From the NCBI RefSeq assembly GCF_026184235.1, contig NZ_CP110806.1, positions 744,001 through 808,000 on the forward strand: a stretch of 64,000 nucleotides of DNA. Direction: 5' to 3'. Shown here in pieces: positions 16,029 to 31,857 of the stretch. The number at the start of each line of letters is the position of its first letter. The stretch's first letter is position 1. The notes below the pieces were generated by a model, which saw only the letters and a program-made list of their open reading frames with translations, was not told the DNA's origin and did not search any database. The translations under genes and the position numbers were made by a program. Source of the stretch: Cellulomonas sp. S1-8. GTDB taxonomy: Bacteria; Actinomycetota; Actinomycetes; Actinomycetales; Cellulomonadaceae.

Positions 16029-16040
16029 CGAAACTGTCGG
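16029..16040 (+). promoter_or_regulatory. Upstream GAAAC-type motif of xylanase gene 1
   Basis: CGAAACTGTCGG lies 137 nt before the start. It is a variant of the CGGAAACTTTCGG motif found upstream of xylanase genes 2 and 3. GAAAnTTTC palindromes are known from streptomycete xylanase promoters; here TTTC is changed to TGTC. Confidence 0.4.
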
Positions 16041-16165
16041 CATTCGTCGGATGACCAGCCCGCACCTGAACGAGTGACCTGTACTGCTTTCACCTGCGCT
16101 TCCACCAACACTGGCTCTCTGACCCGTCAGCGGGGGTCGCCATGTTGTTGCGCAAGGGAGCGTCG

Positions 16166-19100
16166 ATGTACACGAAGCAGCGCCGGAAGGCGTCCGAAAC
16201 TATCGGGGTGGGAGCGGCCGTCCTGGCCCTCGTCGCCGCCCCCATGGTCGGGACGAGCCTGTCGTCCGCCCGGGCCGCCGAGCCCGTCACGATCCTGTCC
16301 GCCGACTTCGAGGACGGCACCGCCAACGGCTGGACCCAGAGCGGCGGTGCCGGTCTGAGCTACCCGACGGACACCGTCCTGCAGGTCGCCGACCGCGTGG
16401 AGGACTGGGACGGCCTGACGTCACCGGCCATCGCGGTCGAGGCGGGCGTCACCTACACCTTCAGCGCACGCGCGAAGCTCGCCGACGGCACCGTCGGGAC
16501 CACGTCGATGCGGTTCCAGACCGGAGCCCCGACGTACAGCTGGATCGGCAACACCAGCGGCATCAACGCCGCGGCCTGGACGACGGTCACCGGCACCTGG
16601 ACCGCTCCCGCGACCGCGGACGAGCTCATCACGTTCAGCGGCTCCGACCTCGACGGCTCGTCGGCCGCGTTCACCTACCTCGTCGACGACCTGCGCGTCA
16701 CCCGGCCCGGCACCGAGGCCGGCACGACCGTCACGGTCGCCGCCGCCGACTTCCAGACCGAGGGCCGCGGGGGCTGGACCCAGAGCGGCAACCCGACGCT
16801 GTCCGAGGTCTCCCTCGGCCGTCACCTGCAGGTCGCCGACCGCGTCAACGGCTACGACGGCATCAAGTCGCCGGCCGTGGACCTCGAGGCGGGCGTCGAG
16901 TACACCGTCTCCGCGCGGGCGCGCCTCGCGGCGGGCACCGTCGGCACTGCCGGCTTCCGGTTCGTCACCGACCCGGGGTACGACTGGGTCGGCAACACCA
17001 CCATCGACGCGACCGGCTGGACCACGGTGACGGGCACCTACACGCCCACCGCGGACACCATGCAGGCGCTGTTCCTCGGCACCGACGACCTCGTCGGCGG
17101 CTCCGGCGCGTACACGTACCAGGTCGACGACATCCGCGTCACGCGTCCCGCGCCCGAGGAGGAGGAGCCCACGCCCGACGTCACGACGGTGGCCGCGGCC
17201 GACTTCGACGACAGCACCCTGGGTGACCTGCGGCAGAGCGGTACGCCGACGCTCGGCTACGTCCCCGAGGGCGACGGCATGGCGCTGAGCGTCACCGGTC
17301 GTGGCCAGACCTGGCACACCGTGGAGTCCGCGACGGGCATCTTCGCCTCGGACGTCGAGTACACCTTCAGCGCGCGCGTCCGGCTCCTGACCGCCGACGC
17401 CGACGCGGTCGGCCGCTTCACGCTGTACGACGGCTCCTACACCCCCGTCGGACCGACGCCGCTGAGCACCGGCGCCTGGACGACCGTCACCGGCACCTAC
17501 ACGGTGCCCGCGGGCGTCGACGCGTCGACCGTGAAGTTCGCGGTCGAGGCCGGCAGCTGGGCCGGCTCCATGCCGGACTACCTGGTCGACGACGTGCTGG
17601 TCACCCGCGCGGCGGGCGACGAGGAGCCGGTCGACCCGGAGGAGCCGGTGACCGTCACGGTCCTCGACTCGACCTTCGAGTCCGGCACGGCCCCCTGGGC
17701 CGGTCGCGGCGCGGGCGTCACGGTCGCCCGTACCACCACCGACGCGCACGGCGGCACGGGCAGCCTGCTCGTCACCGGCCGGTCGCAGAACTGGCACGGC
17801 ACGCAGACCGCCATCAACCCGATCTTCGCCCCCGGCGGCACCTACGCCGTCTCGGCGTGGGTCAAGCTGGCGCCGGGCGAGGCCGACACGACGATCAAGA
17901 TGACCGTCGCCGAGGTCCCGGACGCCTGGATCGAGGCCGCACCCGCGGTCGCCGTCACGGACGACGCCTGGGTGCAGGTCAGCGGCACGTACACGCGCGG
18001 GGCGGGTGTCACCGGTGGTGACATCTACTTCGAGGCCGCCGGCGTCACCACGAGCTTCCTCGTCGACGACGTCGTCTTCGTCGGCCCCGCCGTCGAGGGT
18101 GGGGACGAGTGGGTCCCGGACCTCGAGGGCTTCGTGCCCGGGGGTGCGGTCAACCCGACCACCACGCCCGTGACCACGGCACGCACCGTCGAGGGCGCGA
18201 CCAACACGGCCGCGCTGACGTTCGACGACGGCCCCAACGGTGCCGACACGGCCGAGCTGCTCGACTTCCTGGCAGCCAACGACGTGGTCGCCACGTTCTG
18301 CGTCATCGGCCAGAACGTGACGGCGCCCGGTGGTGCCGCGACGCTGCAGCGGATCGTGTCCGAGGGGCACACGCTGTGCAACCACGGCACGACCTACGCC
18401 GACATGGGCGCCATGTCCAAGGCCGAGGCCGAGGCCGACATGAAGGCGAACCTCGCCCTCATCCGCACCGCGCTCGGTGACGACAACGCCCAGGTGCCGT
18501 ACTTCCGTGCACCCAACGGCAGCTGGGGCCAGACGGCCGAGGTCGCCGTGGCGCTGGGCATGCAGCCCCTCGGTGTGGTCAACACGATCAACGACTGGGA
18601 CACCCAGGACGAGGCGACGCTGACCGCGAACCTGCGGACCGCGATGCGCAACGGCGAGATCGTCCTCGTGCACGACGGCGGCGGCAACCGTGCCGGGTCC
18701 GTCGCGGCAGCGAAGACCGTGATCGCCGAGCGGCTCGCCGCGGGCTGGTCGTTCACCCTGCCCAGCGGTGGCGCGGACGGCTCGTACGTCCCGTCGGGCA
18801 GCATCGACGCGGACTTCGAGGACAACACCCTGCAGGGGTGGTCGGGTCGCGACGCCGGCAACGGTGCACCGACCGTCGAGGTCGTCGCCCCGGGCCGCGA
18901 CTCGCAGTACGCGGCGCGCGTCTCGAACCGTGACGGCCAGGGCGAGGGCCTGCAGCACAACGTGGCGGGGATCTTCGAGCCCGGTGCGACGTACGACGTG
19001 TCGGCCTGGATCAAGTTCGAGGGCACCCCGGGTGACATCACCCTGAGCGCCCACGTCGAGGCCAACGGCTCGTCGTCGTACCCGAACCTGATCTCGTTCC

Positions 19101-21838
19101 CCGGCATGTCGAACGAGTGGGTGCAGGTCACCGGCACGTTCACGATGCCGAACTACACGACGGCGGCCGAGGTCTACTTCGAGACCGCGTGGGCCGGGGG
19201 CGCGGCGGGCAACACGTCCACGTTCCTCGTCGACGACATCACGTTCGAGGTGCGGCCCGACGCGGTCGTCCAGGACCTGCCGTCGCTGCAGAGCTCGATC
19301 GACGTGCCGTTCGGCGTGGCGGCGGACTCCCGGGAGACCTTCCGGTCCGCTGCCGAGCTGCTGAACAAGCACTTCACGCAGCTCACGCCGGAGAACTCCA
19401 TGAAGCCGGAGGCGTGGTACACCGCGGACGGGACCTTCCAGCCCAGCGCGGACGCCGAGGCCCTCATGGACTTCGCCGTCGAGAACGACCTGCGGGTCTA
19501 CGGGCACGTGCTGGTCTGGCACGCGCAGACGCCGGCCTGGTTCTTCCAGGACGGCGCCGGCAACGCCCTGCCGGTGAACGACGCCAGCGCGGTGATCGTG
19601 CGCGAGCGCATGCGGACGCACATCAACTCGATCGCCGAGTACATGGCGGACCGCTACGGCCTGTTCGGCTCCGACGGCAACCCGCTCGTCGCGTGGGACG
19701 TCGCCAACGAGGTCATCGCGGACAGCGGTGAGTACTCCGACGGCATGCGTCGCTCCGACTGGTACAAGTACCTGGGCGAGGAGTTCCTCGACTCGGCGTT
19801 CGAGTACGCGAACGACGCCTTCAACGGCACGTACGCGGCCCCGGGCGTCAGCCACCCGGTCGAGCTGTTCATCAACGACTACAACAGCGAGCTCCAGGGC
19901 AAGCAGCAGCGGTACTACGACCTGATCGAGCGCCTGCTCGCCCGGGGCGTGCCGCTGGACGGCGTGGGCCACCAGTTCCACGTGTCGCTGTCGCTGCCCG
20001 TCTCCTTCCTCGGCGACACCCTGGAGAAGTTCTCCGACCTGGGTCTGCAGCAGGCGGTCACCGAGCTCGACGTCACCACCGGTGTCCCGGTGACCGAGGC
20101 GCTGCTCGTCGACCAGGGTCACTACTACCGCGACGCGTTCCGCGCGTTCCGGGCGTACGAGGACCAGCTCTTCTCGGTCACGGTGTGGGGTCTGTACGAC
20201 ACCCGGTCGTGGCGCAACGGCAACGGTGCACCGCTCGTCTTCGACGAGGACATGCAGGCCAAGCCCGCGTACCACGGGATCATGGAGAACGGTGAGCTCG
20301 CCCCGCGCATCCGCCGGGGCAACGCGTTCCACGGCGACGTGACGCTGGACGAGAAGGCGACGTCCGACGTCATGTGGTCGCAGCTCCCGCTGCAGCGCGT
20401 CGACGAGCTCGAGGACGTGGCGAGCTTCCAGGCGCGGTGGTCCGACGACCACCTCACCGTGTACGTCGAGGTGGCGGACGCGTTCGACTCCCTCGAGCTG
20501 CAGGTCGGCGACGAGACGTTCGCGGTCTCGCGGGACGGCTCGGGCGACGTCGAGGGCGTGGTCACGGAGACGGCGAGCGGCTGGACCGCCGTGGTCCACC
20601 TGCCGGTGGCGGGTCTGACCGAGGGCGACACGGTGCAGTTCGACCTGCGGGCCCTCGACGGGGACCGGGTGGTCGGCTGGAACTCGCCGGGCATCCTGGG
20701 TGACCTGGCGCTCGTCGAGGCGCTCTCGACGGTCGACGTCCTGAGGGCGACGTCCGCTCCGACGGTCGACGGCGACGTCGACGAGGCGTGGGCGCAGGCC
20801 TCGACCGTCTCGACGGCCAAGGAGATCCAGGGCACGGGCGGCGCGACCGCCACGGTCCGGACCCTGTGGAACGGCGCGACGCTGTACGTGCTGGCCGACG
20901 TCCTCGACCCCACGGTGGACACGTCGTCGACCGCAGCGCTCAACGAGGACTCGCTCGAGATCTTCCTCGACGCGGGCAACTTCAAGAACGGTCCGTACCG
21001 CTACGACGACACCCAGGTGCGGATCAGCGCCGACAACGCGGTGACGTTCGGCACCGGTGACCTCGGCTTCCAGCAGGCTCGCGTCGAGTCCGCTGTCTCG
21101 CCGACGGCGACCGGCTACCGCGTCGAGGCGGCCATCGGCCTTCTCGAGTCGGGCGGTCTGGGGACGTTCCACGGCCTGGACTTCCAGGTCAACGACGCGA
21201 CCGACGGCGAGCGCACCTCGGTGCGCACGTGGGCGGACCCGACCGGCCTGGGCTACCAGTCCACGGCGCGCTGGGGCGTGGCACAGCTCGTGTCCGAGCT
21301 GGCGCCGCCCGTCGACGGCGTCGAGCCGACGCTGTCGCTGTCGACGCCGTCGGTCAAGGCCGGCACCGCGGTGACGGTCGACCTGGCCGGGTTCACGCCC
21401 GGTGACACCGTGAGCATCGCTCTCGGTGCCGGGGCGACGTCGTCCGGTGGCCTGGGTGGTGTCGGTGCCGCGGTCGCGGCCCCGACGGGGACCACGCTGC
21501 TGGGGTCGGTCGTCGTGGCCGGCAACGGCGCGGCGTCGGTCACGGTGATGATCCCGGTCGCGACGGCAGCGGGCACGTACCGCGTCGTCGGGGCCGTCGG
21601 CGGGGACGTCCTCGCCGAGGCTGCACTGACCGTCACGGCGGCGGACGCCGCGGGCGGGCCGTCCGGTGGTCCCACCACCGGCCCGGCCCCGGCCGCCGGT
21701 GGCACCCTCGCCACGACGGGTGCGGGTCTCGGCCTGGGCCTGCTGGCCCTGCTGGTCCTGCTGACGGGCACGGTTCTCCTCGTGGCCCGTCGTCGCGGCC
21801 ACCTCGCTGACGAGGTGGGTCGCACGCTGCGCCGCTGA
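16166..21838 (+). CDS. Secreted wall-anchored GH10 xylanase with CE4 deacetylase and multiple CBMs
   Basis: A 1890-residue modular xylan-degrading protein. Signal peptide at residues 1-37 (ends SARA). Then four beta-sandwich CBM_4_9-type modules (about 40-650), a CE4/NodB deacetylase (about 665-870: TFDDGP 685-690, HTLCNH from 735, RAPNGSW from 781, LVHDGGG), and a fifth CBM (about 875-1035). A GH10 domain follows (about 1040-1385; acid/base E1182 in WDVANEV, nucleophile E1300 in VTELDV), then a degenerate and a clear CBM9-like domain (to about 1712) and an Ig-like domain. LATTG (1848-1852) with a hydrophobic segment and Arg tail ends it. The ATG at 16166 is chosen for AAGGGAG 6 nt upstream and agreement with genes 2 and 3. 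It probably deacetylates and hydrolyses xylan at the cell surface. Confidence 0.93.
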   Translation: MYTKQRRKASETIGVGAAVLALVAAPMVGTSLSSARAAEPVTILSADFEDGTANGWTQSGGAGLSYPTDTVLQVADRVEDWDGLTSPAIAVEAGVTYTFSARAKLADGTVGTTSMRFQTGAPTYSWIGNTSGINAAAWTTVTGTWTAPATADELITFSGSDLDGSSAAFTYLVDDLRVTRPGTEAGTTVTVAAADFQTEGRGGWTQSGNPTLSEVSLGRHLQVADRVNGYDGIKSPAVDLEAGVEYTVSARARLAAGTVGTAGFRFVTDPGYDWVGNTTIDATGWTTVTGTYTPTADTMQALFLGTDDLVGGSGAYTYQVDDIRVTRPAPEEEEPTPDVTTVAAADFDDSTLGDLRQSGTPTLGYVPEGDGMALSVTGRGQTWHTVESATGIFASDVEYTFSARVRLLTADADAVGRFTLYDGSYTPVGPTPLSTGAWTTVTGTYTVPAGVDASTVKFAVEAGSWAGSMPDYLVDDVLVTRAAGDEEPVDPEEPVTVTVLDSTFESGTAPWAGRGAGVTVARTTTDAHGGTGSLLVTGRSQNWHGTQTAINPIFAPGGTYAVSAWVKLAPGEADTTIKMTVAEVPDAWIEAAPAVAVTDDAWVQVSGTYTRGAGVTGGDIYFEAAGVTTSFLVDDVVFVGPAVEGGDEWVPDLEGFVPGGAVNPTTTPVTTARTVEGATNTAALTFDDGPNGADTAELLDFLAANDVVATFCVIGQNVTAPGGAATLQRIVSEGHTLCNHGTTYADMGAMSKAEAEADMKANLALIRTALGDDNAQVPYFRAPNGSWGQTAEVAVALGMQPLGVVNTINDWDTQDEATLTANLRTAMRNGEIVLVHDGGGNRAGSVAAAKTVIAERLAAGWSFTLPSGGADGSYVPSGSIDADFEDNTLQGWSGRDAGNGAPTVEVVAPGRDSQYAARVSNRDGQGEGLQHNVAGIFEPGATYDVSAWIKFEGTPGDITLSAHVEANGSSSYPNLISFPGMSNEWVQVTGTFTMPNYTTAAEVYFETAWAGGAAGNTSTFLVDDITFEVRPDAVVQDLPSLQSSIDVPFGVAADSRETFRSAAELLNKHFTQLTPENSMKPEAWYTADGTFQPSADAEALMDFAVENDLRVYGHVLVWHAQTPAWFFQDGAGNALPVNDASAVIVRERMRTHINSIAEYMADRYGLFGSDGNPLVAWDVANEVIADSGEYSDGMRRSDWYKYLGEEFLDSAFEYANDAFNGTYAAPGVSHPVELFINDYNSELQGKQQRYYDLIERLLARGVPLDGVGHQFHVSLSLPVSFLGDTLEKFSDLGLQQAVTELDVTTGVPVTEALLVDQGHYYRDAFRAFRAYEDQLFSVTVWGLYDTRSWRNGNGAPLVFDEDMQAKPAYHGIMENGELAPRIRRGNAFHGDVTLDEKATSDVMWSQLPLQRVDELEDVASFQARWSDDHLTVYVEVADAFDSLELQVGDETFAVSRDGSGDVEGVVTETASGWTAVVHLPVAGLTEGDTVQFDLRALDGDRVVGWNSPGILGDLALVEALSTVDVLRATSAPTVDGDVDEAWAQASTVSTAKEIQGTGGATATVRTLWNGATLYVLADVLDPTVDTSSTAALNEDSLEIFLDAGNFKNGPYRYDDTQVRISADNAVTFGTGDLGFQQARVESAVSPTATGYRVEAAIGLLESGGLGTFHGLDFQVNDATDGERTSVRTWADPTGLGYQSTARWGVAQLVSELAPPVDGVEPTLSLSTPSVKAGTAVTVDLAGFTPGDTVSIALGAGATSSGGLGGVGAAVAAPTGTTLLGSVVVAGNGAASVTVMIPVATAAGTYRVVGAVGGDVLAEAALTVTAADAAGGPSGGPTTGPAPAAGGTLATTGAGLGLGLLALLVLLTGTVLLVARRRGHLADEVGRTLRR
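16195..16206 (+). promoter_or_regulatory. Intragenic GAAAC-type motif in xylanase gene 1
   Basis: CGAAACTATCGG begins 29 nt after the ATG, within the signal-peptide codons for ETIG. The same 12 bases occur at the same offset in the other two xylanase genes, written with GAA and ACT, codons that are uncommon in this G/C-ending gene set. Confidence 0.45.
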
Positions 21839-21882
21839 CGCGCAGCGGTTCGTCGCGGGGGCCCGACCCCCCGTGACCTCCC

Positions 21883-21924
21883 GGAGCCCCACCGGCTGGA
21901 TCCCCCTCCAGCCGGTGGGGCTCC
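21883..21924 (+). terminator. Terminator hairpin after xylanase gene 1
   Basis: A perfect 18-bp stem (left arm starts GGAGCCCCACCGG) closes a 6-base C-rich loop, 45 bases after the stop. No U-tract follows, as is common in high-G+C actinomycetes. Confidence 0.85.
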
Positions 21925-21968
21925 GTCGTGCGCCGTCCGTCCGTCGTTCACCCACAGGAGCGATGTTT

Positions 21969-21981
21969 CGGAAACTTTCGG
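21969..21981 (+). promoter_or_regulatory. Upstream GAAAC-type operator of xylanase gene 2
   Basis: CGGAAACTTTCGG contains the palindrome GAAA-C-TTTC. It overlaps a second one, GTTTC-G-GAAAC (21965-21975). It is identical to the motif upstream of gene 3 and lies about 60 nt before the putative -35. Confidence 0.55.
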
Positions 21982-22039
21982 TATCGATTCTGCAACCATC
22001 CGGGTGGCAACGTTCACGACACCTGGCTGTATGTCCAGT

Positions 22040-22069
22040 TTGGCGCGTACGTTGGCCAGGCGATATCAG
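22040..22069 (+). promoter_or_regulatory. Putative promoter of xylanase gene 2
   Basis: TTGGCG (22040-22045), an 18-nt spacer and TATCAG (22064-22069). Gene 3 has the same arrangement (TTGCCG, 18 nt, TATCAG) and the same leader after it, CTTTCTGCGC then AAGGGAGCGTCAATG. The conserved spacing supports it; the hexamers are imperfect. Confidence 0.4.
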
Positions 22070-22094
22070 ACTTTCTGCGCGCAAGGGAGCGTCA

Positions 22095-25000
22095 ATGGGT
22101 CGGACCCGGCACCGCAAGGTGCTCGAAACTATCGGTGTCAGTGCGGCAGCAGCCGCCCTGGTCGCCGCGCCAATGGTCGTGATCGGCACCTCTGCCGGCG
22201 CGGCGGACTCGCAGGTCGTGCTCGGCGTCGACTTCGACGACGAGACGATCGGGACCTGGAGCACCGCAGGCGAGGTCACCCTCGGCTACGTCGACACCGA
22301 CAGCGGCAAGGCCCTCGAGGTGGCCGGCCGCGCCAACGACTTCCACGGGATCAAGTCGCCCGAGGTCGCCTACGAGGGCGGTGTCGCCTACACGTTCTCG
22401 ATGCAGGCCAAGCTGCCCGAGGGCACCGAGGGCACCGCCGACATCCGCTTCGTCGTCGACACCGACTACACGTGGGTCGGCAACACGACGATCTCCGCCG
22501 CGGACTGGACGACGGTCACGGGCGTCTACACGCCCGCCGACGACCGCACGCGGCAGGTCTACCTGGGCACCGGCGCCCTGGGCGCCGCCGACATCACCGC
22601 GCCCTACACCTACCTGGTGGACGACATCGAGGTGACGCGTCCCGCCGCCGACGGCGGTGGTGGCGAGGCCGAGATCGTCCTGAGCAGCGACTTCGAGTCC
22701 GACGTCGCGCCGTGGGTCGGCCGCGGTGCCGCCACGGCCGCGCGCACGACCGACGACGCGCGCTCCGGCGAGGGCAGCATGCTCGTCAGCGGCCGGACCT
22801 CCAACTGGCACGGTGCGCAGACGCCGATCGCGTCGCTCTTCGCGGCCGGCTCGACGTACGACGTCTCCGCGTGGGTCAAGCTCGCGCCCGGTGAGGCGTC
22901 GACCACGGTCAACATGACCGTCGCCGAGGTCCCCGAGGCCTACACGCAGGTCGTGCCCGCCGTCGCCGTGACCGACCAGGACTGGGTCGAGCTCACCGGC
23001 ACGTACACGCGCGGCGAGGCCGTCACCGGGGGTGACCTCTACTTCGAGGCCGCCGGCGCGACGACCAGCTTCCTCGTCGACGACGTCGTCATCACCGGCC
23101 AGACCGTGACCGACGACTGGGAGCCGGACCTCGAGGGCTTCGTCCTCGGCGGTGCGGTCGACCCGACCAGCACCCCCGTCGGCGCCGCGCGCGGCACCGG
23201 CAACGTGGCGGCGCTGACGTTCGACGACGGCCCGAGCGGCACCGACACCAGCGACCTGCTCGACTTCCTCGGCGAGAACGACCTGCCGGCGACGTTCTGC
23301 GTCATCGGGTCGCAGGTCACCGCCCCGGGCGGTGCGGACCTGCTCCGCCGGATCGTGTCCGAGGGCCACACGCTGTGCAACCACAGCACCGGCTGGGCCG
23401 ACATGGGCGCGCTGTCCAAGGCCGAGGTCGAGGCCGACCTCAAGGCGAACCTCGCGATCATCCGCACCGCGCTGGGCGACCCCGAGGCGAAGGTGCCGTA
23501 CTTCCGTGCGCCCAACGGCTCGTGGGGCCAGACGATCCCCGTGGCCGTCGCGCTCGGCATGCAGCCGCTCGCGGTGTCCAACACCATCTCCGACTGGGAG
23601 ACCCAGGACGAGGCCACCCTGACGGCGAACCTGCGTGCGGCCATGGTGCCGGGACGCATCGTCCTCGTGCACGACGGCGGCGGTTCCGGCGACGGCGGGC
23701 GGGCGGCGTCGATCGCCGCGACGCGCACCGTCGTCTCCGAGCGTCTGGCCGACGGCTGGACGTTCACGCTGCCCCAGGGCGGCGCGGACGGTGAGGGCTC
23801 CGGCACGAACCTGTCCTTCGACTTCGAGGACGGCACGCTGCAGGGCTGGGCGCCGCGCGCCACCGAGGAGGGCGCCGCGACGGTCGGCGTGACCGAGGAG
23901 GGCGGGCACGACTCCGCCCGCGCGGCACGCATCTCGGACCGCGTCCACCAGGGTCAGGGTCTGCAGTACGACGTGACGGGCCTGCTCGCCGCCGGTCAGA
24001 CCTACCAGTTCGAGGCGTGGATCAAGTTCGAGGGCGAGCCCGGCGACGCGACGCTGAGCGTCCGCACCGAGACGGGCGGCACCAGCGCCTACGGCAACCT
24101 CGCCAGCCTCACGGGGCTGTCGACCGAGTGGACCCGCGTCGCCGGCACGTTCTCGCTGCCGTCGTACGAGACCGCGGCCGAGATCTACTTCGAGACGGCG
24201 TACGACGGCGGCAACGCCGGCAACACGTCGACGTTCCTGCTCGACGACATCTCGATCACGAGCCCCGGCCCGATCACGATCGAGGACCTCCCGCCGCTGA
24301 AGGACACGGTGCCGTTCCCCATGGGCATCGCGATCGACAGCCGCGAGACGATGGGCTCGCCCGCCGAGCTGACGAACCTGCACTTCAACCAGTACACGGG
24401 CGAGAACCACATGAAGCCCTACGCCTGGTACGACGACGACCGGAACTTCCGGATCGACCCGCAGGCGACGGCCATCATGGACGCGGCCGTGGCCAACGAC
24501 GCACGGGTCTACGGCCACGTGCTCGTGTGGCACAGCCAGAACCCCGGCCAGACGGCGGCGGACCCGGAGACGGGCACCCCGGCCAACCCGGGCTGGATGT
24601 TCTACGGCGACGACGGCGAGCTGCTGACGTCGAGCGAGGCCGACCAGGCGATCCTCCGGGAGCGGCTGCGGACGCACATCTTCGCCGTGGCGGAGAACCT
24701 GCACGACACCTACGGCGCCTTCGGGTCGGACACCAACCCGCTCGTGGCCTGGGACGTCGTCAACGAGGTCGTGTCCGACGGGGCCGAGAACCCCGACGGT
24801 CTGCGGCGGTCCGCGTGGTTCAACATCCTCGGTGAGGAGTTCATCGACCTCGCGTTCATCTACGCGGACGAGGCCTTCAACGAGGAGTACGCGGCGGCGG
24901 GTACCGACCGTCCGGTCACGCTCTTCATCAACGACTACAACACCGAGCAGGTCGGCAAGCAGGACCGGTACTTCGCCCTGGTCGAGCGTCTGCTCGAGCG

Positions 25001-27032
25001 CGGCGTGCCGATCGACGGCGTGGGCCACCAGTTCCACGTCAACCTGACGCTGCCGATCTCGGCGCTCGAGAACGCCCTCACGCGGTTCGAGTCGCTCCCG
25101 GTGGTCCAGGCCGTGACCGAGCTCGACGTCGCCACCGGCACGCCGGTGACCGACGCCCGGCTCATCGACCAGGGCTACTTCTACCAGGAGGCGTTCGACG
25201 TCTTCCGGGCGCACGCCGACAGCCTCTTCTCGGTGACGGTGTGGGGTCTGAACGACGGTCGGAGCTGGGTCAACGCCAACGGCGCCCCGCTGCTCTTCGA
25301 CGACCTCCTGCAGGCGAAGCCGGCGTACTACGGTGCCGCCGGTGCCGAGCTGCCGGGCCGCATCCGGACGGCCAACGCCTTCGCGGGCGAGGTCGCGATC
25401 GACGAGGACGCCACGTCCGCGATCGAGTGGCAGCAGCTGCGGCTCATCCCCGTCGGCGACGCCGGCGCGTTCCAGCTGCGCTGGGCCCCGGACACCCTGG
25501 CGGTGTTCGTGGACGTCACCAACGACGACGCCGACGCGCTCGAGCTGCAGGTCGACGACTCGACCTTCGCGTTCAACCGTGACGGCACGGGCGACGTCGA
25601 CGGCGTCGTCACCGAGGTCGACGGCGGCTGGCAGGCCGTCGTGCACCTGCCGCTCGACGGCGCCACCGAGGGCGGCACCCTGTCGTTCGACGTGCGCATC
25701 GCCGACGGCGACGACGTCACGGCCTGGTCGGGCTCGCCCGACGCGACCGGCACGCTGACCCTCCTCGAGGAGCTGTCGTACCTCGAGGCCCCGCAGGCGT
25801 CCGTGGCACCGGAGATCGACGGCGACGTCGACGGCGTGTGGGACGACGCGACCGGTGTGGTGACCGCCAAGCAGGTCTCCGGCACCAACACGGCCGTCGC
25901 CGAGGTCCGCACCCTGTGGCGGGACGACTCGCTGTACATCCTCGCCGAGGTCACCGACCCCGACATCGACGTCACGGGCAGCGACCCGTGGATCCAGGAC
26001 TCCGTCGAGATCTACGTCGACGCGGGGAACTACAAGAACGGCGCCTACCGCCCCGAGGACATGCAGATCCGCATCAACGCGGACAACGTCGTGTCGTTCG
26101 GTGCCGGTGACCCGGCGGTCCAGGACGCCCGTGTCGAGTCGGCCACCAGCCGGACCGACGACGGCTACCTGGTCGAGCTCTCCGTCGACCTGCTCGAGGA
26201 GAGCGGCCTCGGCACGTTCCACGGCCTGGACTACCAGGTCAACGACGCGTCCGGCGGCTCGCGCCTCGGCATCACCAACTGGGCCGACCCGACGGGCCAG
26301 GGCTACCAGTCCAACGCCCACTGGGGCGTGGGCCGGCTCGTCGAGGCCGGCGGGCCTGAGCCGACCCCGACGGTGACCCCGACTCCGACGGTGAGCCCGG
26401 AGCCCACCACCAGCCCGGAGCCCACCACGAGCCCGGAGCCGACCACGAGCCCCGAGCCGACCACCGGCCCGACGCCGAACCCGACCACCACGGCCGGGCC
26501 TTCGCCCACGCCGACGGCGGGACCGACGGACCCGCGTCCCGACGCGAGGATCACGCTCGGTGCCTCGCAGGTGCGGGCCGGTACGGCGGTCTCGGTGCGG
26601 CTGCAGGGCTTCGAGCCCGGTGACCGTGTCGCGCTCGCCCTGGGTGCCGGCACCACGGCCTCGGGTGGTCTCGGAGGTGTGGGTGCCGCAGCAGCGGCGC
26701 CCGGACGGACGACGCAGCTGGCGACGGTCGTCGTCGGTGCGGGTGGCACGGGTGTCAGCAACGTGACGATCCCGGCCGGCACGGCAGCGGGCACCTACCT
26801 GGTGCTCGCGGCCGTCGACGGCACGGTCGTCGCCGACGCGGCCCTGCAGGTCCTCGCGGCAGCACCGGGCACGGCCGCCGGTACCGGCACGGGCTCCGGC
26901 CTGGCCGTCACCGGTGCCGGTCTCGGGCTCGCGGGCCTGGCGCTCCTCGCCCTGACCGCCGGTGTCCTGCTGGTCGTCGCCCGGCGCCGTGGGATGACCC
27001 TCGAGGGGGTGCGCGAGTCGCTGCGGCGCTGA
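22095..27032 (+). CDS. Secreted wall-anchored GH10 xylanase with CE4 deacetylase and PT-rich linker
   Basis: A 1645-residue paralogue of the previous gene with fewer N-terminal modules. Signal peptide 1-36 (ends SAGA). Two CBM_4_9-type modules precede a CE4/NodB deacetylase (TFDDGP 375-380, HTLCNH from 425, RAPNGSW from 471). A further CBM, a GH10 domain (about 731-1093; acid/base E891 in WDVVNEV, nucleophile E1009 in VTELDV) and two CBM9-like regions (the clear one about 1229-1416) follow. A Pro/Thr linker (about 1420-1480), an Ig-like domain and LAVTG (1603-1607) with a membrane segment and Arg tail end it. The ATG at 22095 has GGGAG upstream. The CE4 metal and catalytic residues are intact, so it should deacetylate as well as hydrolyse. 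It stands as its own transcription unit between hairpins. Confidence 0.93.
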   Translation: MGRTRHRKVLETIGVSAAAAALVAAPMVVIGTSAGAADSQVVLGVDFDDETIGTWSTAGEVTLGYVDTDSGKALEVAGRANDFHGIKSPEVAYEGGVAYTFSMQAKLPEGTEGTADIRFVVDTDYTWVGNTTISAADWTTVTGVYTPADDRTRQVYLGTGALGAADITAPYTYLVDDIEVTRPAADGGGGEAEIVLSSDFESDVAPWVGRGAATAARTTDDARSGEGSMLVSGRTSNWHGAQTPIASLFAAGSTYDVSAWVKLAPGEASTTVNMTVAEVPEAYTQVVPAVAVTDQDWVELTGTYTRGEAVTGGDLYFEAAGATTSFLVDDVVITGQTVTDDWEPDLEGFVLGGAVDPTSTPVGAARGTGNVAALTFDDGPSGTDTSDLLDFLGENDLPATFCVIGSQVTAPGGADLLRRIVSEGHTLCNHSTGWADMGALSKAEVEADLKANLAIIRTALGDPEAKVPYFRAPNGSWGQTIPVAVALGMQPLAVSNTISDWETQDEATLTANLRAAMVPGRIVLVHDGGGSGDGGRAASIAATRTVVSERLADGWTFTLPQGGADGEGSGTNLSFDFEDGTLQGWAPRATEEGAATVGVTEEGGHDSARAARISDRVHQGQGLQYDVTGLLAAGQTYQFEAWIKFEGEPGDATLSVRTETGGTSAYGNLASLTGLSTEWTRVAGTFSLPSYETAAEIYFETAYDGGNAGNTSTFLLDDISITSPGPITIEDLPPLKDTVPFPMGIAIDSRETMGSPAELTNLHFNQYTGENHMKPYAWYDDDRNFRIDPQATAIMDAAVANDARVYGHVLVWHSQNPGQTAADPETGTPANPGWMFYGDDGELLTSSEADQAILRERLRTHIFAVAENLHDTYGAFGSDTNPLVAWDVVNEVVSDGAENPDGLRRSAWFNILGEEFIDLAFIYADEAFNEEYAAAGTDRPVTLFINDYNTEQVGKQDRYFALVERLLERGVPIDGVGHQFHVNLTLPISALENALTRFESLPVVQAVTELDVATGTPVTDARLIDQGYFYQEAFDVFRAHADSLFSVTVWGLNDGRSWVNANGAPLLFDDLLQAKPAYYGAAGAELPGRIRTANAFAGEVAIDEDATSAIEWQQLRLIPVGDAGAFQLRWAPDTLAVFVDVTNDDADALELQVDDSTFAFNRDGTGDVDGVVTEVDGGWQAVVHLPLDGATEGGTLSFDVRIADGDDVTAWSGSPDATGTLTLLEELSYLEAPQASVAPEIDGDVDGVWDDATGVVTAKQVSGTNTAVAEVRTLWRDDSLYILAEVTDPDIDVTGSDPWIQDSVEIYVDAGNYKNGAYRPEDMQIRINADNVVSFGAGDPAVQDARVESATSRTDDGYLVELSVDLLEESGLGTFHGLDYQVNDASGGSRLGITNWADPTGQGYQSNAHWGVGRLVEAGGPEPTPTVTPTPTVSPEPTTSPEPTTSPEPTTSPEPTTGPTPNPTTTAGPSPTPTAGPTDPRPDARITLGASQVRAGTAVSVRLQGFEPGDRVALALGAGTTASGGLGGVGAAAAAPGRTTQLATVVVGAGGTGVSNVTIPAGTAAGTYLVLAAVDGTVVADAALQVLAAAPGTAAGTGTGSGLAVTGAGLGLAGLALLALTAGVLLVVARRRGMTLEGVRESLRR
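22124..22135 (+). promoter_or_regulatory. Intragenic GAAAC-type motif in xylanase gene 2
   Basis: CGAAACTATCGG, 29 nt after the ATG and identical to the motif at the same place in genes 1 and 3. It lies about 155 bp from the upstream motif, with the putative promoter between them. Confidence 0.45.
26394..26465 (+). repeat. 18-bp tandem repeat encoding (SPEPTT)4 linker
   Basis: Four 18-bp units encode SPEPTT repeats within a longer Pro/Thr-rich stretch between the CBM9-like and Ig-like domains of xylanase 2. Such linkers are flexible and often glycosylated in actinobacterial secreted enzymes. Neither of the other two xylanases has this linker. Confidence 0.85.
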
Positions 27033-27043
27033 CCCGCAGCAGC

Positions 27044-27076
27044 GGGCCGGGGTGACACGTCACCTCACCCCGGCCC
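27044..27076 (+). terminator. First hairpin after xylanase gene 2
   Basis: GGGCCGGGGTGA pairs with TCACCCCGGCCC across a 9-base loop, starting 11 bases after the stop. The identical structure follows xylanase gene 3 at 30525-30557. Confidence 0.65.
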
Positions 27077-27083
27077 TCACGCA

Positions 27084-27124
27084 GAGCCCCGCCGGCTGAT
27101 CCCCCCCGACAGCCGGCGGGGCTC
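27084..27124 (+). terminator. Second terminator hairpin after xylanase gene 2
   Basis: A 15-bp perfect stem (GAGCCCCGCCGGCTG with its complement) and an 11-base loop rich in C. It resembles the terminators after genes 1 and 3. Confidence 0.8.
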
Positions 27125-27146
27125 CGCCGTACCCGCCTCCACGCCG

Positions 27147-27208
27147 CGCCGACCGGAACCCGACTCCCCGAACGGGCACCCCGACGGGGAGTCGGGTTCC
27201 GGTCGGCG
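27147..27208 (+). repeat. 62-bp inverted-repeat element with 23-bp perfect arms
   Basis: The left arm (27147-27169, CGCCGACCGGAACC...) and right arm (27186-27208) are perfect complements around a 16-base centre. Related elements of almost the same length lie at 30651-30711 and 30723-30784, and a degraded one near 9425-9490. No coding potential is seen. Confidence 0.8.
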
Positions 27209-27219
27209 GGGTGGGGTGT

Positions 27220-27232
27220 CGGAAACTTTCGG
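27220..27232 (+). promoter_or_regulatory. Upstream GAAAC-type operator of xylanase gene 3
   Basis: CGGAAACTTTCGG, identical to the motif before gene 2, 123 nt before the start codon. Confidence 0.55.
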
Positions 27233-27289
27233 TCTCGGTTGTGCAACGTTGGACGGGCGGGAGGGTCTACCGCTGGCCGTATGACCCTG

Positions 27290-27319
27290 TTGCCGCTTAC
27301 GGTGGCCGCGCAGTATCAG
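27290..27319 (+). promoter_or_regulatory. Putative promoter of xylanase gene 3
   Basis: TTGCCG (27290-27295), 18-nt spacer, TATCAG (27314-27319). The layout matches the gene 2 promoter and is followed by the same leader. Confidence 0.4.
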
Positions 27320-27342
27320 ACTTTCTGCGCAAGGGAGCGTCA

Positions 27343-30300
27343 ATGGGTCAGGCACGGCACCGCAAGGTGCTCGAAACTATCGGCATCGGGATGGCGGCGA
27401 CTCTCGTCGCAGCTCCACTGGCGGTGGTCGGCACCGCTGCCGGCGCCGCGGCGGCGGACCTGGTGCTCAGCAGCGACTTCGAGACGAGCGTCGCCCCGTG
27501 GACAGGTCGCGGCGACGCGACCGCCACCCGGACGACCGACGACTTCCACACGGGTGCCGGCAGCATGCTGGTCGCCGGGCGGACCGCCAACTGGCACGGT
27601 GCAGCGACCTCCATCGCCTCGCTCTTCGTGAGCGGCGGGACGTACGACCTGACCGCGTGGGTGAAGCTCGCCCCGGGCGAGGAGGACACCACCGTCAAGG
27701 TGACCGTCGCCGAGACCCCCGAGGCGTACACCGGGGTCACGGAGGACGTCGCCGTGACGGACGACGCCTGGGTGGAGCTGACGGGCACCTACGTCCGCGG
27801 CGACGCCGTCACGGGCGGTGACCTCTACTTCGAGGCCGCGGGCGCCACGACGAGCTTCCTCGTCGACGACGTCGTCATCATGGGCGAGGCGCCCGAGGTC
27901 GAGATCCAGGACCTCACGCCGCTGCACGAGACGGTGCCGTTCCCGATGGGCGTCGCGATCGACGACCGCGAGACCACTGGCGCGCCGGGGCAGCTCGCGG
28001 CGCTGCACTTCAACCAGATCACGGCCGAGAACCACATGAAGCCGTACGCCTGGTACGCCGAGGACCGCTCGTTCCGCACGAACCCCGTCGCCAGGACGCT
28101 CATGGACACCGCCGTGGCCGAGGACCTGCGGGTCTACGGGCACGTGCTGGTCTGGCACGGCCAGAACCCGGGCCAGACGGACGCCGACCCGGCCACCGGC
28201 ACGCCGGCGAACCCGGGCTGGATGTTCTTCGGCGACGACGGTGAGCTGCTCACCTCCAGCCCCGAGGACCAGGCGATCCTGAGCGAGCGCATGCGCACGC
28301 ACATCTTCTCGGTCGCCGAGGCGCTGTCCGACGAGTACGGCCTGTTCGGCTCCGACACCAACCCGCTGGTCGCGTGGGACGTCGTCAACGAGGTCGTCGC
28401 CGACGGCGGCGAGAACCCCGACGGCCTGCGCCGGTCGCAGTGGTTCAACGTGCTGGGCGAGAACTTCATCGACCTCGCGTTCACGTACGCGAACGAGGCG
28501 TTCAACGAGATGTACGCGGTGCCGGGGGACAGCCGTCCCGTCACGCTGTTCATCAACGACTACAGCACCGAGGCCGTCGGCAAGCAGGACCGGTACTTCG
28601 CGCTCGTCGAGCGGCTCCTGTCGCGCGGCGTGCCGCTCGACGGCGTCGGCCACCAGTTCCACGTCAGCCTGACGACGCCGATCTCCGCGCTCGAGGCCGC
28701 GCTCACGCGGTTCGAGGCGCTCCCGGTCACCCAGGCCGTCACCGAGCTCGACGTCGCCACGGGTACGCCCGTGACCGAGGCCAAGCTCATCGAGCAGGGC
28801 TACTACTACCGCGACGCGTTCGACGTGTTCCGCGCCAAGGCGGACTCCCTGTTCTCGGTCACGGTGTGGGGTCTCTACGACAGCCGCAGCTGGGTGGTCG
28901 ACAACGGCGCGCCGCTGCTGTTCGACGACCGCCTGCAGGCCAAGCCCGCCTACTACGGTGCAGCCGGTCTCGAGCTGCCGGGCCGGGTCGCGTCGGCCGA
29001 CTCGTTCGGTGGCCTGGTCGCCGTCGACGACGCCGCGCCGTCCGCACCCGAGTGGGAGCAGCTGCCGCTCGAGCCGATCGGCGAGGACGGCGTCGCCGGG
29101 GGACTGCAGACCCGCTGGACGGCGGACACGCTGACCGTCCTGGCCGAGGTCCCGGCGACCACCGACGCCCTGCGCGTCACGGTCGGCGAGACGACCTACG
29201 AGGTCGTGCGCACGGGCGAGGGTGACCTGCCCAGCGTCTGGGCGGAGCACGGCGACGGCCTGCGGGTCGTGCTGCAGGCGCCGCTCGACGGCGCCGAGCA
29301 GGGCGACGTGCTCGCGTTCAACCTGGGCGTCGTCCAGGGCGAGCAGGTCACGTCCTGGTCCGGCAGCGCGGGTTCGCTGTCGCTCGTCGAGCCGCTGTCC
29401 TCCGTCGAGGTCCCCTACGCGGCCGCGGACATCCCCGACGTCGACGGTGCCGTGGACGAGGTGTGGACCGCTCTCCCCGCGATCCTCACGGGCAAGCAGG
29501 TCAACGGCACGGGCACGGCGACCGCCGAGGTCCGCACGATGTGGGACACGGACACGCTCTACGTGCTCATGGACGTGACCGACCCCGACATCGACGCCAC
29601 GGCCACCCAGCCGTGGGAGCAGGACTCGGTCGAGATCTACCTCGACCTGGGCAACGCGAAGAACGGCACCTACCTGCCCACCGACATGCAGCTGCGCGTC
29701 GGTGCCGACAACGCCGTGTCCTTCGGCAACGGGCCGGCCGAGCAGGGTGACCGCGTGCGGACGGCGACGTCCCTCACGGACACCGGGTACGTCGTGGAGG
29801 TCGCCATCGGCCTGCTCGGCCTCGGCGGCGCGGACACCGTGCACGGGGTCGACTTCCAGGTCAACGACGCCAGCGGCGGCACGCGCCTCGGCATCACCAA
29901 CTGGGCCGACCCGACGGGCCAGGGCTACCAGTCCACCGGCCGCTGGGGCGTCGCCACGTTCGTCGAGGGTCCCGTCGAGCCGGCCGAGCCGAGCATCACG
30001 CTCAGCAGCGACCAGGTGCGGGCCGGTGAGCAGGTGCAGGTGACCCTCACGGGCTTCGAGCCGGGCGCCGAGGTGGCGATCGCGCTCGGCGCGGGCGTCA
30101 CCGCGACGGGTGCGCTCGGTGGTCCGGGCACGGCGGTGGCCCCGGAGGGCACGACGCTCCTCGGGACCGTCACGATCGGTGCGGGCGGCACGGCCGTCAC
30201 GACCGTCACCGTGCCGGCGTCGACGGCGCCGGGCACCTACCTGGTGAGCGGTTCGGTCGGCGGCACCGTCCTGGCCGACACCGTGCTCTCCGTCCTCGCG

Positions 30301-30513
30301 GCGGCGCCCGTCGACGGCGGGCCCGGCACGGGAACGGGCACGGGCACCGGTACCGGCGCTGGGACGGGCGCGGGCGGCAGCCTGGCCGTCACCGGGGCCG
30401 GGCTCGGGCTCGCCGGCCTGGCGCTCCTCGTCCTGACCGCGGGTGTCCTGCTGGTCGTCGCACGACGCCGCGGGATGACCCTCGAGGGGATGCGCGAGTC
30501 GCTGCGGCGCTGA
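27343..30513 (+). CDS. Secreted wall-anchored GH10 xylanase without deacetylase domain
   Basis: A 1056-residue compact member of the trio. Signal peptide about 1-37. One CBM_4_9-type module (about 38-185) leads directly into GH10 (about 190-545; acid/base E350 in WDVVNEV, nucleophile E468 in VTELDV). A degenerate and a clear CBM9-like domain (about 681-872), an Ig-like domain, a Gly/Thr-rich linker and LAVTG (1014-1018) with a membrane segment and Arg tail follow. The CE4 domain of its two neighbours and the CBM behind it are missing, with clean domain borders and no frameshift. Its 3' end and following hairpin are nearly identical to those of gene 2, pointing to recent duplication or gene conversion. 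It should hydrolyse xylan left unsubstituted by the other two. Confidence 0.93.
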   Translation: MGQARHRKVLETIGIGMAATLVAAPLAVVGTAAGAAAADLVLSSDFETSVAPWTGRGDATATRTTDDFHTGAGSMLVAGRTANWHGAATSIASLFVSGGTYDLTAWVKLAPGEEDTTVKVTVAETPEAYTGVTEDVAVTDDAWVELTGTYVRGDAVTGGDLYFEAAGATTSFLVDDVVIMGEAPEVEIQDLTPLHETVPFPMGVAIDDRETTGAPGQLAALHFNQITAENHMKPYAWYAEDRSFRTNPVARTLMDTAVAEDLRVYGHVLVWHGQNPGQTDADPATGTPANPGWMFFGDDGELLTSSPEDQAILSERMRTHIFSVAEALSDEYGLFGSDTNPLVAWDVVNEVVADGGENPDGLRRSQWFNVLGENFIDLAFTYANEAFNEMYAVPGDSRPVTLFINDYSTEAVGKQDRYFALVERLLSRGVPLDGVGHQFHVSLTTPISALEAALTRFEALPVTQAVTELDVATGTPVTEAKLIEQGYYYRDAFDVFRAKADSLFSVTVWGLYDSRSWVVDNGAPLLFDDRLQAKPAYYGAAGLELPGRVASADSFGGLVAVDDAAPSAPEWEQLPLEPIGEDGVAGGLQTRWTADTLTVLAEVPATTDALRVTVGETTYEVVRTGEGDLPSVWAEHGDGLRVVLQAPLDGAEQGDVLAFNLGVVQGEQVTSWSGSAGSLSLVEPLSSVEVPYAAADIPDVDGAVDEVWTALPAILTGKQVNGTGTATAEVRTMWDTDTLYVLMDVTDPDIDATATQPWEQDSVEIYLDLGNAKNGTYLPTDMQLRVGADNAVSFGNGPAEQGDRVRTATSLTDTGYVVEVAIGLLGLGGADTVHGVDFQVNDASGGTRLGITNWADPTGQGYQSTGRWGVATFVEGPVEPAEPSITLSSDQVRAGEQVQVTLTGFEPGAEVAIALGAGVTATGALGGPGTAVAPEGTTLLGTVTIGAGGTAVTTVTVPASTAPGTYLVSGSVGGTVLADTVLSVLAAAPVDGGPGTGTGTGTGTGAGTGAGGSLAVTGAGLGLAGLALLVLTAGVLLVVARRRGMTLEGMRESLRR
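27372..27383 (+). promoter_or_regulatory. Intragenic GAAAC-type motif in xylanase gene 3
   Basis: CGAAACTATCGG, again 29 nt after the ATG in the ETIG codons. Confidence 0.45.
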
Positions 30514-30819: not shown

Positions 30820-31857
30820 GTGCCGACCGACCGTGAGCCCGCCGTTGACGTTGCCGCGATCCACGCGCCGAGCACCGGGGGAGCGGCGCCCCACGACGGA
30901 CCGGTCCTCCCCGGTGACGTCGGACCCGAGCCGTTCGCGCTGACCCGCCTGGTCGCGGTCGCGCTCGACGAGGACCTCGGCCCCGCGCCCGGCCGTGACG
31001 TCACGACGCAGTCCACGGTGGACGCTGCGGTTCGTGGGCGCGCCGACGTGGTCGCGCGCGAGGCCGGGGCGATCGCCGGGCTCGTCGTCGTCCCGGAGGT
31101 CCTGGACCAGGTCTCCCACCGCCTCGGCCTGCCGCGTGCCACGGTGACGTGGCACGTGCGCGACGGCGCCGTCGTCGACGGCGGCGCGGTCCTCGCGACG
31201 CTCGAGGGCCCGACCCACGTGCTGCTCGTCGCCGAGCGCACGCTGCTCAACCTGGTGTCGCGCGCGTCGGGTGTCGCCACGCACACGTACCGTTGGACCC
31301 GAGCTCTGAGCGGCACCGGGGCGCGGGTGCTCGACACCCGCAAGACGACGCCGGGGCTGCGCGCGCTCGAGAAGTACGCCGTGCGGTGCGGCGGCGGCAC
31401 CAACAAGCGCATGGGCCTGTACGACGTCGCGATGGTGAAGGACAACCACGTCGTCGCGGCCGGGTCGGTCGCTGCCGCGGTGCGCGCCGTGCGCGAGCGG
31501 TTCCCCGACGTCGCCGTGCAGGTCGAGGTCGACACGCCCGCGCAGGCCGACGAGGCGCTCGACGCCGGTGCCGACTTCCTGCTGCTCGACAACATGGACA
31601 CGGCGACCCTGCAGGCCGCCGTCGCGCGCGTCCGGGCCCGGGAGGGTGGGGCCGGGCACGTCGATCTCGAGGCCACCGGCAACCTCACGCTGGACCGGGC
31701 GCGCGAGGTCGCGCTGACGGGCGTCGACTACCTGTCGGTCGGCGCGCTCACGCACTCGTCGCCCATCCTCGACGTCGCGCTGGACCTCGACCCACGGTCG
31801 GTGGCGGCGCCGTCCGCCGGCACCGTGCCCGCCGGGGAGCGCGAGCCGCGCCCGTAG
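30820..31857 (+). CDS. nadC: Nicotinate-nucleotide pyrophosphorylase (carboxylating)
   Basis: A 345-residue quinolinate phosphoribosyltransferase that makes nicotinate mononucleotide from quinolinate and PRPP. Family blocks include EDLGPAPGRDVTT, ERTLLNLVSRASGVAT, DTRKTTPGLRALEKYAVRCGGGTNKRMGL (read across in parts), KDNHV and the terminal SVGALTHSSP. About 35 extra residues precede the core. It follows xylanase gene 3 and its terminators, and has its own -10-like box. Its stop codon TAG is part of the -10-like box of lysS. The expected partner nadB lies upstream of the three xylanase genes. Confidence 0.95.
   Translation: MPTDREPAVDVAAIHAPSTGGAAPHDGPVLPGDVGPEPFALTRLVAVALDEDLGPAPGRDVTTQSTVDAAVRGRADVVAREAGAIAGLVVVPEVLDQVSHRLGLPRATVTWHVRDGAVVDGGAVLATLEGPTHVLLVAERTLLNLVSRASGVATHTYRWTRALSGTGARVLDTRKTTPGLRALEKYAVRCGGGTNKRMGLYDVAMVKDNHVVAAGSVAAAVRAVRERFPDVAVQVEVDTPAQADEALDAGADFLLLDNMDTATLQAAVARVRAREGGAGHVDLEATGNLTLDRAREVALTGVDYLSVGALTHSSPILDVALDLDPRSVAAPSAGTVPAGEREPRP

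Follow-up and report, generated by a model that had tools for sequence, protein, structure and literature searches.

Paired operator-like sites, one of each pair within signal-peptide codons, at three tandem GH10 xylanase genes of Cellulomonas sp. S1-8

Three genes for multimodular GH10 xylanases were found head to tail on the plus strand in a 64,000-nucleotide stretch (the window) of the genome of Cellulomonas sp. S1-8 (RefSeq assembly GCF_026184235.1, contig NZ_CP110806.1); the genome consists of a single contig of 4,504,702 bases, of which the window covers positions 744001-808000. Each gene carried two copies of a palindromic, operator-like motif, one ahead of the start codon, the other within the codons of the signal peptide. 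These pairs, common to all three genes, had been missed in an earlier interpretation made from the letters of the window (the sequence-only reading). We interpret the locus as a tandem-expanded set of wall-anchored xylanases under a LacI/BxlR-type repressor with two operators per gene, one of them coding, and give this interpretation as a whole a probability of about 0.65. It suggests that gene control may shape the first amino acids of an exported protein.

At the trio, the outer sites were located at -137, -125 and -122 and the inner site in each case at +29, with spacings of 151-166 bp. The inner sites encoded S/L-E-T-I-G in the signal peptide. When the genes were searched for a BxlR-type motif (CGAANNTTTCG-like), six sites were found, each with one mismatch to CGAAANTTTCG. 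Exact GAAACTNTCGG occurred seven times in the 4.5-Mb genome, six times at the trio in pairs and once in a GH11 gene, and the reversed control did not occur. With up to one mismatch, CGAAANTTTCG was found at 14 sites in the genome, versus two for the control. Besides the six at the trio, two lay in the first codons of GH11 genes, one upstream of a LacI gene, one at -129 of a GH5 cellulase gene and one at -243 of a GH10-CBM2 gene. Both GH11 genes belonged to a cluster (C1:314960-322565; locus L011:2961-10566) of three GH11 genes, one of them fused to CE4, that also contained a stand-alone CE4 gene and a gene resembling an esterase; CE4 had the usual HxxxH form there. A TACGGT-like -10 element was seen by eye about 45 bp before the ATG in many of 27 start regions, less clearly at gene 1 of the trio, so that the promoter would lie between both sites. 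A second palindrome, CTGGTC-N3/4-GACCAG or near forms, was present at the expected -35 place at about 22023-22038 and 27273-27288 of the window. Relatives, L020 and L061 for example, had it at the corresponding place; it perhaps belongs to another regulator.

Conservation of the sites was investigated in those 81 of 86 homologous open reading frames (ORFs), all GH10 relatives, to which a start had been assigned; the first gene of L020, cut by a contig end, has a wrong start. An intragenic site was present in 24 of the 81, at +29 (11 genes), +20 (7) or +32 (6), and an upstream site in 20, with both at 11 loci. Of 76 sites in 1.44 Mb of relatives' sequence, 44 fell within the GH10 start windows, which make up about 3% of it. 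The site-bearing genes came from Cellulomonas (21) and from other Micrococcales (3; L028, L046 and L047), and the 57 site-less genes from Cellulosimicrobium, Micromonospora, Georgenia, others and some Cellulomonas. All 27 E[TS][IF] peptides at the site position, the three of the trio included, were encoded by GAA followed by ACT or AGT, a combination that did not occur among the 698 ET/ES pairs at other places in the 84 genes. In the site-bearing genes GAA accounted for 1.1% of Glu codons, ACT for 0.4% of Thr codons and AGT for 0.55% of Ser codons. ETIG made up 20 of the 27 peptides, and no E[TS][IF] peptide was found within the first 22 residues of the 57 site-less genes.

The unrelated GH11 family showed the same arrangement. 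Among 60 genus genomes, 28 had GH11 genes (42 matches), and of 30 such genes 21 had an intragenic site at +5, under the five peptides ESF, ESI, DSF, DTF and ASF. An upstream site was present in 14 of the 30, and 40 sites were counted in 104 kb; some GH11 starts are automated guesses, and that of L208 looks wrong. The palindrome also occurred in the reversed form CGACAGTTTCG. Being kept under changing peptides, and even when reversed, it is unlike a protein motif.

Across the 60 genus genomes, exact CGAAANTTTCG was found at 11 sites in 11 genomes (control 1), nine of them at xylan or sugar genes according to a reading of the ORFs, not all of which were tested with Pfam. CGAAACTATCG gave 64 matches in 30 of the genomes (control 1). 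Thirty of these 64 sites, one per genome, were inspected by eye: 12 were intragenic in signal peptides of the ETIG type and seven lay upstream of apparent xylan or sugar genes (L113, L114, L118, L122, L125, L126 and L133). At L115, L123, L124 and L136, CGAAACTATCG was located 15 bp ahead of a LysR-like gene with an exonuclease-like gene opposite, and no link to xylan was seen at these four loci. Promicromonospora and related genera had one or two in-frame copies of CGAAATCGTTTC or similar strings, encoding R-N-R-F near the start codon. Exact CGAAATCGTTTC gave 21 matches in 16 of 121 family genomes (control 2); in nine of the 16 it lay in such signal peptides, in four of them as pairs 18, 27 or 33 bp apart, and in seven it lay elsewhere or was unplaced. 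Signal peptides of this type in Promicromonosporaceae relatives (L036, L037, L041, L042, L052-L055, L071, L080, L172-L175 and L177-L181) had unusually A/T-rich codons. We consider it somewhat more probable than the contrary that, in Cellulomonas and some relatives, a xylan operator is set as a rule of the regulon into the n-region codons of two unrelated xylanase families, DNA binding and not export dictating the residues (ETIG, ESIG, ETFG, MxESF, MxDTF), and that Promicromonospora and its kin do likewise with the wider-spaced CGAAATCGTTTC, often twice as RNRF.

A candidate regulator emerged from L122, where CGAAACTATCG was found between a LacI gene and a divergent gene resembling a substrate-binding lipoprotein. 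The best match of this LacI in the S1-8 genome was C1:3738446-3739438 (51%), which has the site CGAAACTTGCG 100 bp upstream, found beforehand by the motif scan. The gene had at first been doubted on account of another palindrome, GCAAACGTTTGC, and was reinstated by the independent route through L122; the doubt is retained below as an alternative. Its neighbours are an ABC permease gene (Pfam) and, judged by eye, ORFs resembling a substrate-binding lipoprotein and GH39. Twenty-three matched LacI genes were compared (L137-L159; 22 genomes at E 1e-100, and the S1-8 gene at 8e-97). In 18 of them, the S1-8 gene included, the motif was present with up to one mismatch no more than about 290 bp ahead of the matched stretch. 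The sites numbered 20, and none occurred elsewhere in these loci. None of nine other LacI paralogs of S1-8 had the motif upstream. Among the relatives of the protein (best 120 of 6260), none bore a name more specific than LacI family. In Streptomyces, CGAANNTTTCG is associated with the LacI-family protein BxlR; it stands at xylanase genes of families GH10 and GH11 as well as ahead of the BxlR gene, which adjoins xylo-oligosaccharide ABC transporter genes (available passages of PMC12772271). That LacI genes often carry their own operator is a general habit (PMC5171806, in the part available).

According to the mechanism proposed here, a LacI/BxlR-type repressor responsive to xylan breakdown products would control the three genes by binding, at each of them, to an operator 122-137 bp upstream of the start and to a second one inside the signal-peptide codons. 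The two operators would flank the promoter, whose place is deduced, like the external and internal gal operators. With no inducer, the promoter would be shut by looping or by blocking of the polymerase. With xylo-oligosaccharides present, the repressor would leave, and the enzymes would be exported and joined to the wall by a single class E sortase. At the wall, the carbohydrate-binding modules (CBMs) might hold xylan while CE4 of the first two enzymes deacetylated it and GH10 cut the chain.

A comparable pair of operators is found at galE of E. coli, where a LacI/GalR-family repressor uses an external operator (OE) upstream of the promoter and an internal one (OI) inside the first coding sequence. 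The arrangement described here likewise combines one upstream and one coding operator; it differs in the spacing, which is 151-166 bp in the window and 130-166 bp in relatives, and in the coding site, which is part of a signal peptide and is shared by two enzyme families unrelated to each other. The BxlR regulon of Streptomyces resembles it in the LacI regulator and in the CGAANNTTTCG palindrome at GH10 and GH11 genes and at the regulator gene, but its sites were described as upstream in the passages available (PMC12772271), whereas here a second copy lies in GH10 and GH11 signal-peptide codons, often paired with the first. No intragenic or LacI operator in Cellulomonas xylanases was named in the passages of open-access literature that were searched; within that literature and to our knowledge, coding operators of this kind are a novel variation on LacI-family control.

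The domain architecture of the three proteins was determined with Pfam; the likely starts were chosen by a preceding AAGGGAG ribosome site. After its signal peptide, protein 1 showed four CBM_4_9 modules, CE4 (Pfam Polysacc_deac_1), a fifth CBM_4_9, GH10, CBM9_1 and the C-terminal motif LATTG. Protein 2 had two CBM_4_9, CE4, a third CBM_4_9, GH10, CBM9_1 and LAVTG, and protein 3 one CBM_4_9, GH10, CBM9_1 and LAVTG, with no CE4 match. One CBM_4_9 thus separated CE4 from GH10 in both proteins 1 and 2. The GH10 domains scored 254, 223 and 222 bits in proteins 1, 2 and 3 (cut-off 22.1), and both catalytic Glu residues were kept in all three (acid/base NEV, nucleophile TELDV). These results agreed with the sequence-only reading, which had given module counts of five, three and one, CE4 in the first two proteins only, a CBM9-like domain, intact GH10 catalysis and the three sorting signals. 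An Ig-like domain that it had placed ahead of the sorting signal found no support, as this region gave no Pfam match at E 0.01. A loop insertion was seen in GH10 of proteins 2 and 3 and was missing from protein 1. Protein 2 also had a Pro-Thr-Ser repeat linker (SPEPTTSPEPTT) after CBM9 (window 26355-26540), absent from proteins 1 and 3. The enzymes are fresh members of an already known kind of secreted multimodular GH10 xylanase. A similar one, Bcell_0541 of Bacillus cellulosilyticus, is a secreted, wall-bound GH10 protein with three CBM22 modules, CBM9 and a sortase signal (available part of PMC3617157). It shares with the trio GH10, CBM9 and a sortase signal for wall-bound carbohydrate degradation, and differs in having LPXTA, a class D sortase and, in the part of PMC3617157 available, no CE4 listed, as against LAxTG, class E and CE4 in two of three proteins here.

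The combination of CE4 and GH10 in one polypeptide, already pointed out in the sequence-only reading, proved to be common, being present in 58 of the 86 homologous ORFs. A departure of these CE4 domains from the usual metal triad had not been seen there. Polysacc_deac_1 scored 85.8 bits in protein 1 and 87.8 bits in protein 2 (cut-off 23.1), with no match in protein 3. The HxxxH of the Asp-His-His triad was not kept in proteins 1 and 2, as the second metal His was replaced by Tyr and Trp, respectively. All 58 CE4 domains of the relatives had Tyr (54) or Trp (4) at this position. Within the 24 CE4 domains of alignment A3, no variation was seen at the Asp residues, at the first His or in the His-Asp of the last motif. 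The solved Clostridium thermocellum CE4 domain 2c71, from a GH11-CE4 protein, likewise has Tyr in place of the second His and shares the Arg-x-Pro-Asn loop, and its motif 3 includes Asn. We take 2c71 to be an active acetylxylan esterase preferring Co2+. The CE4 domains of the locus resemble 2c71/2c79 in Tyr for the second metal His and in the fusion to a xylanase; there, the partner is GH11 with a dockerin, and here protein 2 has Trp at that place. As the second metal His is missing in proteins 1 and 2, their relatives and 2c71 alike, the domains are assigned to CE4 of the 2c71 type only. The best profile match of the CE4 domain was the peptidoglycan deacetylase 2c1g, so that xylan is a putative substrate and activity on acetylated xylan a prediction. 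A model of the protein 2 domain had a mean predicted local distance difference test score (pLDDT) of 91 and was not used as evidence for metal binding. The available part of PMC5855634 contained nothing on CtCE4.

The sorting signals of all three proteins consisted of LATTG or LAVTG followed by a hydrophobic stretch and then RRR. The Pfam sortase family had three matches in the genome and none in the window, as the sequence-only reading had also noted. Exactly one, at L001, was of class E (NF033747, 253 bits, cut-off 160); the others were a class F sortase (187 bits, cut-off 166) and one with 119 bits, under the class F cut-off. The class E protein retained the stretches GHY, AGHR, TLTTC and RERY, and with them the Tyr and the catalytic His, Cys and Arg, which makes LAxTG anchoring plausible. 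Its Tyr aligned with Tyr229 of Streptomyces coelicolor SrtE1 (through the Y229 primer text in the part of the source available and an alignment to a solved sortase). For SrtE1, a class E sortase, this kind of Tyr was proposed to recognize LAxTG, and the two enzymes share the catalytic His/Cys/Arg, the GHY Tyr and the LAxTG preference; they differ in that the chaplins anchored in S. coelicolor serve development, while the candidates here are xylanases (PMC5148588, in the part available). Covalent wall anchoring of the trio by the class E sortase is therefore likely, judged from these residues and signals. Of the 86 homologous ORFs, which came from 78 loci, 25 had an LxxTG-type ending; 24 of these were scored as such, and L061 was added because its LAVTG had been masked in scoring. 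The ending was missing from the other 61, a few of which are cut at contig ends. L040, L056 and L081 (Georgenia, Oceanitalea) and L062 ended in LPVTG or LPRTG instead, and further relatives had, by eye, SLH- or CBM-like C-terminal modules. The endings being so varied, the C-terminal attachment module looks exchangeable.

The trio was located between nadB and nadC-lysS. In this gap, a single gene was present in C. iranensis, C. telluris, RM44_bin.080 and five other Cellulomonas (L025, L026, L029, L048 and L073), whereas the metagenome-assembled genome N5CT had two genes there, and C. avistercoris and strain KH9 each had three. The last three Cellulomonas were the closest relatives (best segment 76-77%), and their second gene lacked the sorting signal. 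A search for the trio in other Cellulomonas, as proposed in the sequence-only reading, found three genes at the locus in two of them, the others named having one or two. In a GH10 tree of 43 of 89 rows, gene 1 grouped with the first genes of L018, L019, L020 and L023 (100/99); for gene 3, the partners were the third genes of L018 and L019 (100/99). Gene 2 grouped with a C. phragmiteti gene (92/69), not with the middle genes of L018 and L019. Single-copy homologues occurred both with and without CE4, C. iranensis having only the CE4-less form at the locus. From copy number and tree, the five/three/one grading of modules is best read as a tandem expansion with module change. Positions of the features are compiled in Table 1.

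Table 1. Features of the xylanase locus (positions in the window)
Feature	Position	Strand	Basis or remark
Gene 1	16166..21838	+	ORF 16142-21838, likely ATG 16166; 1890 aa; Pfam
Gene 2	22095..27032	+	ORF 21873-27032, likely ATG 22095; 1645 aa; Pfam
Gene 3	27343..30513	+	ORF 27211-30513, likely ATG 27343; 1056 aa; Pfam
Upstream operator-like palindrome, gene 1	16029..16039	+	CGAAACTGTCG, -137 from ATG; 1 mismatch to CGAAANTTTCG
Upstream operator-like palindrome, gene 2	21970..21980	+	GGAAACTTTCG, -125; 1 mismatch to CGAAANTTTCG
Upstream operator-like palindrome, gene 3	27221..27231	+	GGAAACTTTCG, -122; 1 mismatch to CGAAANTTTCG
Intragenic operator-like site, gene 1	16195..16205	+	CGAAACTATCG, +29; codes S-E-T-I-G of signal peptide; motif scan
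Intragenic operator-like site, gene 2	22124..22134	+	CGAAACTATCG, +29; motif scan
Intragenic operator-like site, gene 3	27372..27382	+	CGAAACTATCG, +29; motif scan
GH10 domain, protein 1	19268..20308	+	Pfam
GH10 domain, protein 2	24279..25361	+	Pfam
CE4 domain, protein 1	18173..18781	+	NHGTTY, Tyr in place of second His; Pfam
CE4 domain, protein 2	23181..23792	+	NHSTGW, Trp in place of second His; Pfam
Sorting signal, protein 1	21707..21835	+	LATTG + hydrophobic stretch + RRR; sequence reading
Sorting signal, protein 2	26901..27029	+	LAVTG + hydrophobic stretch + RRR; sequence reading
Sorting signal, protein 3	30382..30510	+	LAVTG + hydrophobic stretch + RRR; sequence reading
Left flank, L-aspartate oxidase-like gene (nadB)	14287..16005	+	Pfam, synteny; name from domains and neighbours
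Right flank, quinolinate phosphoribosyltransferase gene (nadC)	30820..31857	+	Pfam, synteny

Several observations weigh against control by paired operators and the candidate LacI. At the threshold used, the intragenic site was absent from 57 of the 81 GH10 relatives and 9 of the 30 GH11 genes, and the counts are not independent events, since the relatives are nested (21 of the 24 site-bearing GH10 genes being from Cellulomonas). Three of the 14 CGAAANTTTCG sites of S1-8 had no sugar link visible by eye, two of the 11 exact CGAAANTTTCG sites of the genus were not at xylan or sugar genes, and of the 30 inspected CGAAACTATCG loci four were at a LysR gene and seven were unrelated or could not be placed. 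Site spacings of 130-166 bp share no single helical phase; an argument for looping from helical phase was tried on them and led nowhere. Five of the 23 matched LacI genes had no site, L137 supplied the LacI query and is not independent, and the other matches were only 51-63% identical to the query, so that orthology is not proved. The separate GCAAACGTTTGC palindrome in the promoter of the S1-8 LacI gene is perhaps its real operator. This palindrome, together with the at least ten LacI-type genes of the genome (E 1e-30), would fit paired sites that are real but bound by another regulator, or that serve an activator. Such an arrangement is conceivable but doubtful, given that the motif accompanied 18 of the 23 LacI matches but was absent from the nine paralogs, and that it goes with a LacI protein, BxlR, in Streptomyces as well (available passages of PMC12772271). 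As an alternative, ETIG/ESIG could be a motif of the signal peptide at the protein level, comparable to YSIRK, with the identity of the DNA as a by-product; this was suggested by the constant position and mostly like letters of the tripeptide in GH10. The alternative was rejected as highly improbable on the codons, rare in every E[TS][IF] case, and on the GH11 genes, which hold the palindrome under five peptides and in the form CGACAGTTTCG; the same motif also occurs in the non-coding upstream DNA of the trio.

The readings of the enzymes themselves have alternatives as well. If the hydrophobic tail merely slowed release, or the signal were unused, the proteins would not be covalently bound to the wall, as the signal-less second genes of C. 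avistercoris, KH9 and N5CT and the 61 ORFs without signal might indicate. We regard this as quite unlikely, because all three proteins keep LAxTG, the hydrophobic stretch and RRR, and the genome encodes a class E sortase with the proposed LAxTG-recognizing Tyr. It also seems unlikely that the CE4 domains are inactive or act on chitin or peptidoglycan instead of xylan. The replaced second His, seen in 58 of 58 relatives' domains, and the profile match to 2c1g point in that direction, against which stand the Tyr and loop shared with 2c71, the invariant Asp, His and His-Asp residues and the fusion to a xylanase. The sequence-only reading had gone further and seen in the trio a graded surface system with a short enzyme for unsubstituted product. 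Its surface and processing part was strengthened by the class E sortase and the CE4-GH10 pairing; the grading and the role of the short enzyme obtained no direct evidence. A division of labour, in which the enzymes would act serially, the long one on acetylated polymer, the middle one on polymer already partly deacetylated and the short one on bare product, would suit the fall in CBM number from five to three to one, the missing CE4 of the short enzyme and the order of first and third genes kept in C. avistercoris and KH9. It is nevertheless improbable with a copy number of one to three among species and only the CE4-less form in C. iranensis. As copy number varies, single copies occur with or without CE4 and the middle gene is signal-less in C. 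avistercoris and KH9, the trio is not a conserved three-part surface machine, and tandem expansion with module change remains our preferred reading.

If the proposed control by paired operators is true, these xylanases provide a test case for an operator whose bases also encode part of a signal peptide, and this in a genus of plant-biomass enzymes. One rare motif would then mark part of the Cellulomonas xylan regulon and name a candidate repressor, and a control site would be lost if the signal peptides of the xylanases were recoded or exchanged. LAxTG-anchored hydrolases are further indicated for a genus whose genome paper gave LPXTG in a single instance.

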